Source of the DNA: Flavobacteriales bacterium
GTDB taxonomy: Bacteria; Bacteroidota; Bacteroidia; Flavobacteriales_E; Vicingaceae
Assembly: GCA_002706365.1 (NCBI GenBank)
Contig: PALM01000039.1
Coordinates: 1 to 46,129, forward strand
DNA: 46,129 nucleotides
Direction of reading: 5' to 3'
Shown: in pieces, positions 1 to 6,781 of the stretch
Layout of the letters: the number at the start of each line of letters is the position of its first letter
How positions within the stretch are numbered: the stretch's first letter is position 1
Position numbers and translations under genes: made by a program
The notes under the pieces: model-generated
Databases searched by the model: none
The model's input: the letters and a program-made list of their open reading frames with translations, nothing else
Told to the model about the DNA's origin: nothing

Positions 1-1298
1 CTCAAACCCAATTGAAACTGATGTCTCGAGTTTAGTTTATGATTGAATGTTGTTGCAAATCGAAGACTGTTTCTATCCAATCTGGAATTATTGAACTCTT
101 TCATTGCCTCTGTTCCATATGGTCGGTTCTCCGTGTATTTGCTGCTTGTTGAAGAGTATGAAATGGTACTTTTTAAATAGCTCTTCTCTCCTAATGGAAT
201 AAAGTGATTTAGTCCACCAACTGCCAATTCGCTGTTCTGGACGAATTCTTCCAAGATCACATCTTCATTGTCTTCTTTGGTGTCTTCTCCATTGATCTCG
301 CTCAATCCACCAAGGCCGAAGATGGAGAATACTCCTGCATTTTCTGTGGGCAGAAAGACTTTGAAATTGACATCTTGGTATTTAGGTACACCGCCAAAAT
401 CAACAGCGCCAATGCCATCTAAAAGTGCCAAGGTAGAGTAGCGGTAGTTGATCAAATAACTTCCATTGTAGTTTTCTTTGAATGGACCCTCTGCTGTAAA
501 GTCGGTACCCAAAACCCCAAAAGTGAAGTTGTATTCCGTTTTTTCGTTGTTTCCGTTGCGCAAGCGCATATCAAATATTCCCGAAAGCGCATTTCCATAC
601 TCCGGTGCAAAGGCTCCAGTATAAAAGTCGGAATTGGCCAATAAGTTGCTATTAAGAGCGTTGATTGGCCCTCCTGTTAAACCTTCCAAGGCAAAATGAT
701 TGGGATTGGGAATTTCTATTCCCTCTAGTCTCCATTGAATGAAGCGAGGATTATTACCTCGAACAATGATGTCATTGTTTCCCGTACCTTCATTGATCAC
801 GCCGGCGAATGAGGATACCAAACGCGCAGGATCATTGATCGCGCCAGCGTGGCGCTTTGATTCTTCAACTGAAAGTTGTTTGCTCGACATCAAGGCCATT
901 TCATTAGAAGATTCATTTTTCGCGCTTCCTTCAATTAGCACTTCTTCCAATTGGTGAAAGGACTCTTTTAGCTCTATGGTCAGCACCTTCTCTTTTCCTG
1001 CAATCAATAAGATATTGGGAAGATTTATAGCTTCATAACCAACATAGGAGATCTTAATATGCAATCTGCCTACGGGAACTTCTTCAATCTTGAAATTACC
1101 GTCTATATCCGTGGTAGTGCCCATTAATGGATCTGTATTGCTGATTACCACATTGGCAAAAGGGATTCCTACTTTGGTGTCAGTATCAATAACTTTCCCT
1201 CGCACCGTTTGAGTTGGATTCTGTGCAACTAGACTTATTGGAATTAGAACGGCTAGTACTGCAATGATGATCAATCGTAAATCACTCTTCTTGTTCAT
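1..1298 (-). CDS. TonB-dependent receptor, N-terminal part (runs off left edge)
   Basis: About 432 residues are visible from the ATG at 1298; the C-terminal part lies outside the window. A hydrophobic signal peptide ending near LVAQN is followed by a carboxypeptidase-D-like domain (residues ~24-105, with the GxVxDxxTxxGIPFANV pattern and a YVGYE segment), then a plug-like region (~125-230, with NDIIVRGNNPRFIQWRLEGI) and the first barrel strands. This is the usual order in Bacteroidota outer-membrane receptors that import bulky ligands using the TonB-ExbBD system. No STN domain precedes the carboxypeptidase-like domain; an STN domain is found on the separate upstream protein at 1452-3197. The gene lies downstream of the sigma/FecR genes on the same strand, behind its own copy of the shared promoter module at 1316-1347. 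The ligand cannot be inferred. Confidence 0.88.
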   Translation of the reverse strand, partial: MNKKSDLRLIIIAVLAVLIPISLVAQNPTQTVRGKVIDTDTKVGIPFANVVISNTDPLMGTTTDIDGNFKIEEVPVGRLHIKISYVGYEAINLPNILLIAGKEKVLTIELKESFHQLEEVLIEGSAKNESSNEMALMSSKQLSVEESKRHAGAINDPARLVSSFAGVINEGTGNNDIIVRGNNPRFIQWRLEGIEIPNPNHFALEGLTGGPINALNSNLLANSDFYTGAFAPEYGNALSGIFDMRLRNGNNEKTEYNFTFGVLGTDFTAEGPFKENYNGSYLINYRYSTLALLDGIGAVDFGGVPKYQDVNFKVFLPTENAGVFSIFGLGGLSEINGEDTKEDNEDVILEEFVQNSELAVGGLNHFIPLGEKSYLKSTISYSSTSSKYTENRPYGTEAMKEFNNSRLDRNSLRFATTFNHKLNSRHQFQLGL

Positions 1299-1451: not shown

Positions 1452-3197
1452 CTAAAAGAAGTCTCTGAAGCCAAGGGAAAGACTAAATCCAATCCAGGCT
1501 TGTAATTGAAGATCCTCCACTTTTTCATTGTAGAAAGTGTAGGGGGGAATGTCTTGGTAATCAGACGATTCAGTGTGTTTGTGTTCAAAACCCATGAGGT
1601 TTACCGACGGACCGTAAGAGATTCTCAGTTTGTGTTTAGCCTTGTTTTGAATAAGGAATTGCCATTTGACTAAACCATAATGGTCAAATGAATTGTTTAC
1701 TTCCTTAAATAGCCAGTGGAACTTCAATTCATAGTTCAAGGGACGATCTGCAGCAGTTCTTTTCTCTTTACCCACACCTAAACCATAGTTCCAGAAAAGA
1801 TCATCTTGATGATATCCAAAACCCGCCGAGAAAATGTTGTAAAAGTGCGGAACGCCCATTTTGAGGTTCAAATTACCATATGAGATCTCATCAGCAGAAA
1901 ACTCCAACTGCTGATATCCTCCTTTTCGAACAAAGCTGAACAAGCCAATTGGTGTTCCAGTAGCTGAGTCAGCAACATTTACAATCCCAATTTGCTTGCC
2001 TTTTAAGATTGTAGAATAATTAATGGGTGCAATTTGTAGTCCATGGTTAGTCCCGATAACAGCATTCAATCCACCGCTTAATTGCAGGCCGTCTAGATCC
2101 TTGGCTTGGTTATATCCTCCTGAAATTTGCGCTCCTTCTGTATTTCCCAAGTTCACATTGACTCCACCTGCCATTTGTAATCCTTGCTGGTCGCCATAGA
2201 CGAAGTTTATACCTCCTGAAAGCTGAACACCTTCAATCCTTTCGCCAACAATATTGGCAGCTCCAGACATTTGTACTCCATCTACTTTTCCGCCTACAAA
2301 ATTGAAAGCTCCGGCTAATTGTATGCCCTCAAGATACTTCCTGTCTATATTGAAGACACTACCTAATTCTAGTGCTCCAGTGCCATAGCTGTAGCCGCCA
2401 ATTAGGTTTAAGGAATATTTGTTCTCTACATTCCCACTCATTTTGCTGTTGGTACTCAATCCTGGGAATATAGAAAATTGAAACTCTCTATAGACAATGA
2501 ATGGGGCATCCTCAGTTCTAATTTGAACTTTTTTGGGAACGAGTACCCTTGAAATATGAAAGTCTTTGTAGCCTTTTTTGCTTATGGCATGGGGAGGGCC
2601 TTCAATCTCTTTCGGACTAAGCTTTTCTAGTTTGATCTCTACATTTTGATCTTCCAAAGGAAGGCTAAGCAATGTATCTCTATAGCCTTCTTTGGCAATA
2701 GATAGGCGTATGTCGCTAAACTCCCCAACTTCCACTTCAATTTTGAAATGTCCGTTTTCATCGCTGAGATCAGAAGTCAGCCCGCTAACTTCAAAAACTA
2801 AGACATTTTCTATGGGCATATTTGAAGAAGATACAATACCTTCAATAGAAATAGTGGCCTTCTCTATTATATTGTTTGCCGGTTTTTCCTGCAGAATGAT
2901 ACTGTTCCCCATTTCTCTAACTACAATATTCTTTGGGAGGATCTGCTCAAAAACAACAGCTGCTGTTTTCTGCTTCACATTTATATTAAGAAGGCTGTCG
3001 ACTGCTAGGATGACGGGATTGAAAGATAGATTGAATTTAGCCTCTTCAGCGATCAATAAGAGTGCATCTCCAAGCTTTATTGATGGATTGGAGATGCTGA
3101 TCTTCCTGCTCTGGAAATTGCTTTCAGTTTGTCCGTTTAGCTGGATGTGCACTAGTAGGATAATTAGGAATGGTAGAAGGAACTTTAATCTCGACAC
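1452..3197 (-). CDS. STN-domain outer-membrane protein with 16-residue glycine-rich repeats
   Basis: 581 residues from a GTG start that overlaps the end of fecR by 13 bases. A signal peptide (1-22) is followed by an STN/secretin-TonB short domain (~30-105: a LGDALLLIAEEAKFNLSF segment, then VVFEQILPKNIVVREMGNSIIL). Next comes a carboxypeptidase-D-like beta-sandwich (~113-190) and six to seven repeats of about 16 residues (~289-397) built on the pattern xGxQxSGGxNxVxGx. The C-terminal ~150 residues alternate in beta-barrel fashion and end in Phe-Phe, an outer-membrane insertion signal. The repeats resemble the LA_2272-type surface repeats of Leptospira by eye. In classical Fec systems the STN domain is on the TonB receptor and contacts FecR; here it sits on a protein lacking plug and receptor barrel. 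Expected role: an outer-membrane signal transmitter or partner of the receptor. Confidence 0.75.
   Translation of the reverse strand: MSRLKFLLPFLIILLVHIQLNGQTESNFQSRKISISNPSIKLGDALLLIAEEAKFNLSFNPVILAVDSLLNINVKQKTAAVVFEQILPKNIVVREMGNSIILQEKPANNIIEKATISIEGIVSSSNMPIENVLVFEVSGLTSDLSDENGHFKIEVEVGEFSDIRLSIAKEGYRDTLLSLPLEDQNVEIKLEKLSPKEIEGPPHAISKKGYKDFHISRVLVPKKVQIRTEDAPFIVYREFQFSIFPGLSTNSKMSGNVENKYSLNLIGGYSYGTGALELGSVFNIDRKYLEGIQLAGAFNFVGGKVDGVQMSGAANIVGERIEGVQLSGGINFVYGDQQGLQMAGGVNVNLGNTEGAQISGGYNQAKDLDGLQLSGGLNAVIGTNHGLQIAPINYSTILKGKQIGIVNVADSATGTPIGLFSFVRKGGYQQLEFSADEISYGNLNLKMGVPHFYNIFSAGFGYHQDDLFWNYGLGVGKEKRTAADRPLNYELKFHWLFKEVNNSFDHYGLVKWQFLIQNKAKHKLRISYGPSVNLMGFEHKHTESSDYQDIPPYTFYNEKVEDLQLQAWIGFSLSLGFRDFF
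2007..2333 (-). repeat. Coding tandem repeat, 16-residue GVQLSGGxN units
   Basis: Codons ~289-397 of the STN protein encode near-regular units, e.g. VDGVQMSGAANIVGER and IEGVQLSGGINFVYGD. Gln at position 5, Ser/Ala-Gly at 7-8 and Asn at 11 are nearly invariant; one unit is 15 residues. The nucleotide sequences of the units differ, so this is an old, selected protein repeat and not a recent DNA duplication. Confidence 0.8.
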
Positions 3198-4177
3198 TTG
3201 GGCTTGCCTGTTAATTCGTATCCATTCATACTTCGCTCATAGGCAAAGCCATAGCTCAAACTGATTTGCTCAAGGATCTCTTCAATTTCTTTGGTATTGA
3301 ACCTTCCCGAGAAAGAACAATTTTCAAAATCCTTAAGCTGATAAGTGATCTCCACTTTAAATTGCAATTCAAGATCCTTAAGGACTTCTGTTAATGAAAC
3401 TTGATTGTAGAGTAGGGCGCTATCTTGCCAGAAAAGCTCATTGGTCGCCATTTTTTCGATCTTGAATTCTGAACCATCTACAAAATAGATCAATTTGTCA
3501 CCTTTGGTTAATATGTGTTTTTCCGCAGTTTTCTTGCTTGTTACAGAAACAGAACCACTTTTTACGCCCACTTCAATTTGCTGTGCATTTTCAGGTGAAT
3601 TCACAAAGAAAGAAGTACCCAGTACTTCTACATCTATTTCTTGAGCATCAATAATAAATGGTCGTTCAGCTGCATGTTCCACTTCAAAGAATGCCTCACC
3701 CTTCAGCTTTACCTTTCGTTCTTTAGCATCAAACTCTTTAGGGTATTCAAGACTCGCGCCCTGATTTAAGCTTACATCAGAACCATCTGGAAGCGCTAAT
3801 TCATAAATTTCGGTTTCCGCTTTAACCGCAATTAAAGTTTCATTGTTTCTATTGAATAGATAGTAAATTGCTATTGAGCTGAGACAAATGGCAAGTATTG
3901 CAGCGGCTCTGCTTAACCATGGTCGGAATGAGATGACTTTTGCTTGACTGGAATTGTTTGCTTTGCTTTCCTCAATTTGTGCAGACACCTTTTCCCAAGC
4001 AGCATCTACATTAATTGCTTGAGCATGAAGCCAGATGCTTTTTGTTTCCTTGTAGAGCAATAAGTTTTCATTGCTCTCGGAAAGCCAATCTTCTAAGCTT
4101 TTTTGCTCTTTATCGCTAAGGGAACCATCCAGTTGTTTGGCGATGATCTGTTCAATATGTTCCGGAATTTCTTGCAT
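3185..4177 (-). CDS. FecR-type anti-sigma factor
   Basis: 330 residues. A cytoplasmic N-terminal part (~1-85) able to bind the sigma factor precedes one membrane helix (~92-108, AAAILAICLSSIAIYYLF). Then come the periplasmic FecR domain (~115-205, with LPDGSDVSLNQGASLEYP and VEVLGTSFFVN) and a C-terminal DUF4974-like region (~255-325), the part normally contacted by an STN domain. It is the membrane relay that holds or activates the ECF sigma factor encoded 44 bases upstream. The stop overlaps the GTG start of the STN protein, which fits translational coupling. Its own promoter module (4184-4215) ends six bases before the ATG, so an almost leaderless transcript is likely. Confidence 0.9.
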   Translation of the reverse strand: MQEIPEHIEQIIAKQLDGSLSDKEQKSLEDWLSESNENLLLYKETKSIWLHAQAINVDAAWEKVSAQIEESKANNSSQAKVISFRPWLSRAAAILAICLSSIAIYYLFNRNNETLIAVKAETEIYELALPDGSDVSLNQGASLEYPKEFDAKERKVKLKGEAFFEVEHAAERPFIIDAQEIDVEVLGTSFFVNSPENAQQIEVGVKSGSVSVTSKKTAEKHILTKGDKLIYFVDGSEFKIEKMATNELFWQDSALLYNQVSLTEVLKDLELQFKVEITYQLKDFENCSFSGRFNTKEIEEILEQISLSYGFAYERSMNGYELTGKPKCRD

Positions 4178-4221: not shown

Positions 4222-4791
4222 TTATAAAATTTCTTTTACCCATTCTAAGAGCACGACCGCTAACAAGATTGCATGCTTTAACTCTTGGCGTAGGTACTTT
4301 AAGGCCAGACTCATTTGTGTTTCTACTGTTTTTACTGAAATATTGAGCTTTTCAGCGATTTCGGCATACTTTAAGCCCTTTTCACGACTCATTAGAAAGA
4401 TCTCTCTCCTTTTTTCGGGTAATTCAGCCAGCTTTTGATTTATCAAATTGGCCAATTCATTTGTCTCTAGATCATGTTCTTCACTAGCCTTTTCTGCATT
4501 AAGTAGTTGGAAGCTTTGGTGATCAGCTTTTACTTTTTCATGTTTTAATACATTGAAACTATGGTTCTTTACGGCTTGAAATAAATACGACTTCAAGGAA
4601 GTTTCGATAGTCAGACTTTCTCTTTTCTCCCAAAGTTTCACGAAAACAGCTTGAACTGTATCTTCAGATTGGGACATATCTTTCAAGTATCCGCATGCAA
4701 AGCGACAAAGGCTAGGGTAGTAGGCTCTAAAAAGCTCTTCAAATGCCTTTTGATCGCCATTCTTGATATACTGAAAATCTAGACGATCCAT
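4222..4791 (-). CDS. ECF RNA polymerase sigma factor (FecI-like, Bacteroidota type)
   Basis: 189 residues, the usual length. Region 2 spans ~10-80 (FRAYYPSLCRFACGYLKD, then SEDTVQAVFVKLWEKRE) and region 4 ~115-175, with the helix-turn-helix YAEIAEKLNISVKTVETQMS. No region 3, as expected for ECF sigmas. It is first in the minus-strand series sigma, FecR, STN protein, TonB receptor, so it should direct core RNA polymerase to the locus's own outer-membrane genes upon a surface signal relayed by FecR. No copy of the GGGGTA/GTCATATAAG module is seen before the sigma gene itself, so its basal expression probably uses another promoter. Confidence 0.92.
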   Translation of the reverse strand: MDRLDFQYIKNGDQKAFEELFRAYYPSLCRFACGYLKDMSQSEDTVQAVFVKLWEKRESLTIETSLKSYLFQAVKNHSFNVLKHEKVKADHQSFQLLNAEKASEEHDLETNELANLINQKLAELPEKRREIFLMSREKGLKYAEIAEKLNISVKTVETQMSLALKYLRQELKHAILLAVVLLEWVKEIL

Positions 4792-5125: not shown

Positions 5126-5170
5126 TGTAAATATGAACAAAAATAACTATATTTGTATGTAAATACGAAC
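5126..5170 (+). promoter_or_regulatory. hipBA promoter with paired direct repeats (candidate operator)
   Basis: TGTAAATATGAAC (5126-5138) and TGTAAATACGAAC (5158-5170) are 12/13 identical direct repeats, 32 bases apart (three helical turns). Between them lies TATATTTG (5148-5155), a perfect TAnnTTTG -7 element, placing the transcript start near 5161, just before the ATG at 5174. Repeats that bracket the -7 element fit autorepression by the HipB-like protein; this is inference. Confidence 0.55.
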
Positions 5171-5173
5171 ATT

Positions 5174-5494
5174 ATGGCCAATAAGAAGATAGTGCTTCTA
5201 CCTAGGGCTCGCAAGATATTATTAGAAGTAGGAGAGAATATTAGATTAGCGAGATTAAGGCGTAAGTTAAGTAGCGAGCAAATTGCAGAGAGAGCCAATA
5301 TTGGGAGAACAACTCTTTACAAAATTGAAAAGGGAGATCCAGGAGTGAGCATTGGTTCATATTTGCAAGTCCTTATGGTATTGAGCCTTGGTGAAGACTT
5401 CTTGAACTTGGCGAAGGATGATGAACTAGGCAGAAAAATACAAGATGCAGAATTGGAAGTGAAAGAAAGGGCGCCAAAAAGAACTGATAAGTAG
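5174..5494 (+). CDS. hipB: HipB-like XRE antitoxin
   Basis: 106 residues from the ATG at 5174. An in-frame TTG at 5153 is rejected because it sits inside the -7 promoter element. A helix-turn-helix of the Cro/CI (XRE) type spans ~22-75: IRLARLRRKLSSEQIAERAN, then IGRTTLYKIEKGDPGVSIGSY. The charged C-terminal tail (~85-106) could contact the toxin. It precedes the HipA-like gene by nine bases, the standard antitoxin-first order, so it should bind HipA and repress the operon through the repeats at 5126-5170. Unlike some HipB proteins it has an N-terminal lysine-rich extension of about 20 residues. Confidence 0.85.
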   Translation: MANKKIVLLPRARKILLEVGENIRLARLRRKLSSEQIAERANIGRTTLYKIEKGDPGVSIGSYLQVLMVLSLGEDFLNLAKDDELGRKIQDAELEVKERAPKRTDK

Positions 5495-5503
5495 AATACA
5501 CCA

Positions 5504-6781
5504 ATGTCGAAGCAAAGCAATAAAAGGTCTGTCTATGTGTACGCTGATTGGGTTGGAATGAAAGAACCATTCTTTATGGGAGTCTTACATAGCAATCGCT
5601 TGAAAGGAAAAGAAATATTCTCATTTGAATATGATGACAAATGGCTGAAAGATGGTCCTTCTCAATTATTGGACCCTAGTTTAGAACTGTATTCTGGCTT
5701 ACATTATTTAACTGATGAGCAGAACAATTTTGGACTCTTTTTGGATTCATCACCAGATCGATGGGGACGTATTTTAATGAGGAGGAGGGAAGCTGCCCTG
5801 GCTAGAATGGAAGGAAGAACTGAGCAAAAACTATTTGAAACCGATTATCTGCTAGGGGTGTTCGATGGGCATAGGATGGGAGCCTTAAGATTTAAATTGG
5901 AACAGGATGCCCCCTTTCTTAATGATAATAGTGAATTGGCAAGTCCACCCTGGACATCTCTTAGAGAGCTTGAGCGGATTAGTTTGCGATTGGAAGAAGA
6001 GGGAGTGATAGATGATCCTGAATATCTTAAGTGGTTGAGTATGTTAGTTGCTCCAGGTACCTCTTTAGGTGGAGCAAGACCGAAGGCGAGTATTACTGAT
6101 GAAGAGGGAGGATTATGGATCGCAAAATTTCCCAGTAGAAATGACCAAGGAGATATAGGAGGATGGGAAATTGTAACTTATGAGTTGGCAAAAATGGCTG
6201 GCATTAAAATGGCTGAATCCAAAGCTCATAAATTCTCATCAGATCATTACACATTCATGACCAAGCGATTCGACAGGACAAAAGAAGGAGAACGAATTCA
6301 TTTTGCATCAGCAATGACAATGTTAGGATATAGAGATGGACAAGATCATGAAGATGATGCCAGCTATTTAGAATTGGTGGAATTTATACAGTCGAACGGC
6401 GCTAGGGTTGAAGATGACCTAGAAGAATTATGGAGAAGAATAGTGTTTAGTATTTGTGTGAGTAATACAGATGATCATTTAAGAAATCATGGATTTATGC
6501 TCACAGAAAGAGGCTGGTTGCTCTCTCCTGCATATGACATTAATCCTAATGAGTTTGGTACAGGATTGAAGCTCAACATATCGGAAGAGGATAACGCCCT
6601 TGATCTTGAACTTGCCTTAGATGTTTGCGCTTTTTTCAGACTAACTAAAGACCAAGCAAAGAAGATAATTCAAGAAGTGAAGCTTGCAGTATGTAATTGG
6701 AGAGATGTTGCTAAGAAGTACGGTATTTCAAGAACCGAACAAGAGCTAAAAGCAATCGCATTTTCAAAAGCCGAAGGATGA
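5504..6781 (+). CDS. hipA: HipA-like serine/threonine kinase toxin
   Basis: 425 residues, close to the full-length HipA of E. coli. The N-terminal subdomain (~10-130) contains the DSSPDRWGR segment. The kinase core shows a flexible Gly-rich loop GTSLGGARPKA (185-195, Ser187 at the autophosphorylation-type position), an ATP-binding lysine in WIAKFP (Lys208), a catalytic loop SNTDDHLRNHG (320-330, Asp323) and a metal-binding SPAYDINP (341-348, Asp345). All key residues are present, so the toxin looks active. HipA kinases phosphorylate aminoacyl-tRNA synthetases, such as GltX, and induce dormancy; the target here is unknown. A structured repeat (6790-6841) begins eight bases after the stop. Confidence 0.9.
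   Translation: MSKQSNKRSVYVYADWVGMKEPFFMGVLHSNRLKGKEIFSFEYDDKWLKDGPSQLLDPSLELYSGLHYLTDEQNNFGLFLDSSPDRWGRILMRRREAALARMEGRTEQKLFETDYLLGVFDGHRMGALRFKLEQDAPFLNDNSELASPPWTSLRELERISLRLEEEGVIDDPEYLKWLSMLVAPGTSLGGARPKASITDEEGGLWIAKFPSRNDQGDIGGWEIVTYELAKMAGIKMAESKAHKFSSDHYTFMTKRFDRTKEGERIHFASAMTMLGYRDGQDHEDDASYLELVEFIQSNGARVEDDLEELWRRIVFSICVSNTDDHLRNHGFMLTERGWLLSPAYDINPNEFGTGLKLNISEEDNALDLELALDVCAFFRLTKDQAKKIIQEVKLAVCNWRDVAKKYGISRTEQELKAIAFSKAEG

Follow-up and report, generated by a model that had tools for sequence, protein, structure and literature searches.

The window, meaning the whole 46,129-nucleotide stretch of DNA that was analysed, is the entire contig C39 of a 3.0-Mb assembly in 47 contigs, and the receptor gene at its start is therefore truncated by the contig end. 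Its nearest named relatives in the searches belong to Flavobacteriales (UBA5081, Acidiluteibacter). Read along the minus strand, a sigma factor gene is followed by fecR, a gene encoding an STN domain and a barrel, and a gene for a TonB receptor that lacks STN:

4222..4791, minus strand: ECF sigma factor gene of the TIGR02985 Bacteroides expansion family (TIGR02985, Sigma70_r2, r4_2)
3185..4177, minus strand: FecR-type membrane anti-sigma factor (PF04773, 2.4e-16; PF16344, 5.5e-13)
~3233-3415, minus strand: FecR_C, the C-terminal, STN-like domain of the anti-sigma factor and the expected docking site for a partner STN (PF16344, 5.5e-13)
1452..3197, minus strand: STN-CPD-beta-helix-barrel protein of 581 aa, the proposed FecR transducer (ORF, domains, model, linkage)
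1..1298, minus strand: TonB-dependent receptor with CarbopepD and Plug, without STN, truncated by the contig end (Pfam); a frequent, non-obligatory neighbour

In a scan with Pfam and NCBIfam models, the sigma factor scored 181.5 bits against TIGR02985 (cut-off, 126.4). As is typical of Fec-type systems, the ECF sigma gene adjoins the gene for a FecR-type anti-sigma factor, and this FecR carries a C-terminal STN-like domain. The 1452-3197 ORF is intact, begins with a GTG codon and shares 13 bp with the end of fecR. The first-pass annotation had placed this gene between fecR and a receptor devoid of STN, and both points held, with CarbopepD and Plug, and no STN, found by Pfam and NCBIfam in the truncated receptor. 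Divergent from the sigma gene, positions 5153-6781 hold an HTH gene and a HipA_C gene that form a HipBA-like pair.

The 581-residue product is composed of the following parts:

3129..3197, minus strand: N-terminal hydrophobic segment, likely a signal peptide, residues 1-23 (MSRLKFLLPFLIILLVHIQLNGQ; helix at residues 4-21 in the model)
2886..3107, minus strand: STN signalling domain, residues 31-104 (Pfam matches of homologues, family profile, fold)
2616..2858, minus strand: CarbopepD_reg / SusC NTE-like sandwich, residues 114-194 (PF13715 in 30/30 homologues; 9hfj fold)
1920..2501, minus strand: 16-residue repeats, a beta-helix in the model, residues 233-426 (3p4g fold; 16/15 spacings; probably periplasmic)
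1455..1919, minus strand: 8-stranded OmpA/OprF-like outer-membrane barrel with an FF end, residues 427-581 (4rlc, 1qjp; eight strands by DSSP)

Domain matches were compared across a family set of 30 full-length proteins, the other 29 being 24-51% identical to the window protein. An STN domain on a stand-alone, non-TonB outer-membrane protein, as originally proposed, was borne out by the family and by fold: PF07660 (STN) gave no match in the window protein in a single-sequence Pfam search and nothing in a profile search of the window genome, even at E 10, but it matched 19 of the 30 full-length homologues (best E 9e-10). The protein next to FecR is thus an exported one with an N-terminal STN, another Fec-type feature. 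The carboxypeptidase-like sandwich was likewise recovered, as CarbopepD_reg_2 (PF13715) in all 30 homologues, with a sub-threshold Pfam match in the window protein itself. The repeats follow the motif G-x-[QE]-x-[AGS]-[GSA]-x-x-[NS] at spacings of 16, 16, 16, 16 and 15 residues in the window; spacings of 15 or 16 residues or their multiples occur in 30/30 homologues, and the number of repeats varies widely. Their likeness to LA_2272 repeats (LA_2272_repeat, NF047436) was seen in 21 of the 30 homologues (best 1.5e-15), and the window copy came close to the threshold, with 22.0 bits (cut-off, 25). Neither Plug nor any TonB-barrel family matched a single one of the 30 homologues, and a TonB barrel was accordingly rejected as the final domain. 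Compared with the PDB, the family profile retrieved the signalling domains of PilQ, PupA and FecA together with SusC NTE domains, several of them weakly. At two loci (L059:9249-11167 and L061:7950-10004) the STN-barrel gene is broken into two neighbouring ORFs, reflecting a frameshift, a stop or a sequencing error.

An AlphaFold model of the whole protein (pLDDT 87.1, pTM 0.66) consists of an N-terminal helix, the STN domain (residues 32-104), the sandwich (residues 115-189), a poorly ordered linker (residues ~200-211), the repeats and the barrel. When modelled alone (pLDDT 86.6), the STN domain resembles the signalling domains of PupB (in its PupR complex), FpvA, PupA, FoxA and FecA, with Z scores of 7.4-8.8 and deviations of 2.4-3.6 Å over 73-79 residues; because secretin N0 and phage baseplate domains match it about equally well (Z 7-9), the fold by itself is unspecific. 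Residues 114-200 resemble the NTE of the SusC protein BT3090 (9hfj; Z 13.7, 1.6 Å over 79 residues), residues 233-426 resemble the beta-helical antifreeze protein 3p4g (Z 17.3, 2.2 Å over 187 residues), and residues 426-580 resemble OprF (4rlc; Z 14.3), OmpA (1qjp; Z 13.7) and NspA (Z 12.8-14.3 across the matches, 2.7 Å). DSSP assigns eight strands to the final barrel. These comparisons point to a beta-helix for the repeats and to a small, closed barrel. The repeats and the barrel ending in Phe-Phe reported by the first-pass annotation are therefore both present, but in the model the repeats are a fold of their own; it does not support their being a portion of the barrel, which is made by the last ~155 residues. 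The C-terminal end of outer-membrane barrels faces inward; since the strands here are even in number and the beta-signal at the C-terminus is inside, we deduce that the beta-helix, CPD and STN would lie in the periplasm.

The STN-barrel family is common in Bacteroidota, and laboratory species that have the locus together with sigma and fecR occur in Pedobacter, Chitinophaga and Dyadobacter (D. luteus). A search for homologues was positive in 48 of 199 related genomes, a count that takes in C-terminal-only paralogues and some STN-bearing receptor matches. After removal of four duplicate contigs, identified by their identical lengths (L071, L072, L076 and L079), fecR was found directly upstream at 48 of 52 STN-barrel loci, comprising 34/34 loci of the first set and 14/18 further loci (13/17 with upstream DNA and one later), counts that are weighted toward the window's class and toward MAGs. 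The same architecture therefore recurs among sigma-FecR neighbours, in keeping with the proposal that a separate outer-membrane protein takes part in the signalling. The four exceptions, which have no adjacent sigma or fecR gene, are three Dyadobacter loci and one locus of a Flavobacteriales MAG:

L078:10001-11821, L081:10001-11821, L075:978-2867 and L085:9887-11731: STN-barrel genes without neighbouring sigma or fecR genes

One of the fecR-less Dyadobacter loci has a barrel-only paralogue downstream, and the fecR-less Flavobacteriales MAG has a head-GIN-like gene upstream (judged by resemblance to DUF2807 matches elsewhere); the other recurrent neighbours of the family are likewise barrel-only paralogues and DUF2807 (head-GIN) proteins. 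In a collection scan with a close four-sequence alignment as query, homologues consisting of barrel or repeats only were seen beyond Bacteroidota, in Deltaproteobacteria, Treponema and Kiritimatiellae MAGs (L093:3-1064, L098:9662-11071 and L104:898-1350), with no adjoining FecR match.

Several observations bear on whether FecR and the STN-barrel protein are partners. In the window genome, a FecR search yielded one FecR among the matches listed, and the family's own profile yielded one STN among the matches listed, so that no alternative STN partner emerged. Of 12 genomes surveyed, 8 have no FecR_C match other than the protein adjoining the barrel gene; further FecRs are present in G169, G059 and G121 of that survey. 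In 40 further FecR-containing stretches, the gene next to fecR nearly always encodes an STN-bearing protein, mostly a receptor of 840-1240 aa, and the STN carriers found beside FecR in this neighbour survey are SusC-type receptors, shorter receptors or small barrels. Since the next gene is almost always STN-bearing, the STN-barrel protein holds the transducer position. In a FecR tree of 82 rows, all 46 barrel-paired FecRs fall into one clade (support 98/98), which also contains five FecRs paired with an STN type of ~460 aa and two that are receptor-paired (short receptors), and all 20 SusC-paired FecRs lie outside it. The tree requires 4 label changes versus 27.2 in shuffles, and barrel-paired FecRs as a single clade were not rejected (p 0.239). 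Comparison of distance matrices for the domains of FecR and for segments of the barrel protein gave mixed results, with a partial r of 0.065 for STN versus the STN-like domain of FecR and no STN-specific co-variation between the two.

STN domains were also seen with other cargoes. In one genome, G076, five FecR neighbours encode an STN plus a cargo that is not long enough to be a TonB receptor (~460-480 aa in total):

L128:1810-3261, L129:4599-5990, L130:3581-4957, L150:3599-4987 and L151:3594-4964: short STN genes of G076

The L128 protein has an STN followed by a charged, proline-rich linker, and OMP_b-brl_2 matched weakly in 2 of the 4 short proteins scanned; these proteins are a possible second type of non-transporter transducer, and the FecRs beside them belong to the clade of the barrel-paired ones. 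A further FecR neighbour, L131:2601-5006 (801 aa), combines STN with an unusual cargo, CarbopepD and ankyrin-like repeats, and its C-terminal part resembles a small barrel by eye. This STN-CPD-ankyrin-like protein corresponds to one of the FecR tree rows labelled 'short receptor', a row that lies outside the barrel-paired clade.

Taken together, we consider it likely that the 581-aa protein is the outer-membrane transducer of FecR and replaces the usual TonB-dependent transporter. The support is comparative and predictive throughout: the gene order, the domains, the linkage to sigma and fecR, the single FecR and single STN obtained in the searches of this genome and the one clade of matching FecRs were established computationally. 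Against it we count that Pfam does not detect STN in the window protein, that the fold is common to secretins and baseplate proteins, that four loci lack an adjacent fecR and that the clade includes two receptor-paired FecRs. The STN domain of a transducer binds the STN-like domain of its anti-sigma factor (PMC11637429; the PupB-PupR structure is discussed in PMC9249621), and in the Fox system the STN of FoxA keeps FoxR from proteolysis when the signal is absent (PMC11637429). In the mechanism we propose, the closed eight-strand barrel would hold the protein in the outer membrane, and the beta-helix, with ~12 coils, would serve as a rigid spacer that holds STN within reach of the STN-like domain at the FecR C-terminus; once docked, the STN would shield FecR from proteolysis, on the analogy of FoxA and FoxR. 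This docking would be released by a change at the level of the barrel, either a surface ligand or a disturbance or mis-assembly at the outer membrane, whereupon FecR would be cleaved and the sigma factor would switch on its targets. Among these would probably be its own operon, along with the barrel-only paralogues, the head-GIN protein or the receptor linked to it. As a plug is absent, TonB energy should be dispensable. More broadly, it is an even call whether the locus represents a TonB-independent branch of FecR signalling that is common in Bacteroidota, in which a small closed barrel, a periplasmic rod and STN are combined with interchangeable cargo; the variants would be beta-helix plus barrel and, elsewhere, a linker with an apparent small barrel and an ankyrin-like form.

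The first-pass annotation viewed the locus as a split surface-signalling system, with the STN apart from the receptor. An STN-less receptor does lie downstream at ~21 non-duplicate loci, the window included, and these receptors belong to one CarbopepD-Plug family and are well conserved at those loci, with 40-66% identity to the window copy. At 10 of 34 well-covered first-set loci, however, there is none in the whole 17-19 kb stretch fetched, and the family occurs in 149 of 199 related genomes, mostly ones without the barrel gene. Because the receptor is not obligatory at the loci and its family is widespread, its linkage is suggestive only, we rejected it as a specific partner, and we favour replacement of the transducer over a split-off receptor STN. 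The same counts weigh on a related possibility, that the barrel protein acts as an adaptor in complex with the adjoining receptor, which would sense and import while the barrel protein relays to FecR. Barrel-only paralogues likewise often adjoin this receptor, which speaks for an adaptor, yet with the receptor so often missing here and so common elsewhere we regard it as unlikely.

A version of the transducer reading in which the cell would sense the assembly state of the barrel or beta-helix itself, or outer-membrane stress, and not an external ligand, is possible but doubtful. Failed insertion would then expose FecR to proteolysis, and an OmpA-like closed barrel with no plug would suit such a role, as would the precedent of Dma1 and Dma2, Bacteroides anti-sigma factors with a terminal barrel that control vesiculation (PMC13088901); the wide variation in repeat number, on the other hand, might rather suggest ligand binding. 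Much less credible is that the protein is a target and not a transducer, namely a sigma-controlled structural or adhesive outer-membrane protein whose STN serves assembly or some other contact. Retention of the gene without an adjacent fecR at the four loci listed above and the use of STN folds by secretins are compatible with that, but the FecR-adjacent copy retains STN where further barrel paralogues lack it, and FecR neighbours elsewhere bear STN regardless of cargo.

In current models of cell-surface signalling, sensing is bound to a TonB-energised transporter, and uncoupling signalling from uptake is hard experimentally (PMC9249621). If our interpretation is true, a widespread, transporter-free form would uncouple the two, and Bacteroidota would gain a route from surface or outer-membrane events to transcription; genomes with a single FecR allow the partner question to be tested directly. 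It is plausible, as the first-pass annotation suggested, that the architecture is of an undescribed type: we found no description of it in the literature searched, a body that leaves out most subscription journals. Annotation of the domains alone has precedents, since RefSeq already lists similar proteins under names such as 'STN and carboxypeptidase regulatory-like domain-containing protein'.

The locus shares with the Fec, Fox and Pup systems (FecA-FecR-FecI) an ECF sigma factor, a FecR with an STN-like C-terminus and a neighbouring outer-membrane partner with an N-terminal STN, and it differs from them in that this partner has a beta-helix and a closed eight-strand barrel in place of a plug and a large TonB barrel. 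The LA_2272 surface repeat proteins (NF047436) have a repeat of the type matched in 21 of the 30 homologues and, just below the cut-off, in the window copy; that model spans the repeat alone, without STN. In the PUMA3 system of Pseudomonas aeruginosa (VreA-VreR-VreI), a non-receptor STN protein is also encoded beside a sigma factor and a FecR-type anti-sigma factor (PMC2729926); VreA, however, is ~23 kDa and mostly soluble, with no barrel and a TolA/TonB-like C-terminal domain (PMC2729926), features not seen in the 581-aa protein, whose barrel and beta-helix are an unrelated cargo. Dma resembles the present system in tying sigma/anti-sigma control in Bacteroidota to a C-terminal outer-membrane barrel with no transporter (PMC13088901), but it does so in one polypeptide with a disordered tether and an ECF21 sigma factor, whereas here the anti-sigma factor and the barrel are encoded by separate genes; the text of the Dma paper mentions neither FecR nor STN (PMC13088901). 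The closest precedents are VreA, an STN protein without a barrel, and Dma, an anti-sigma factor fused to one.
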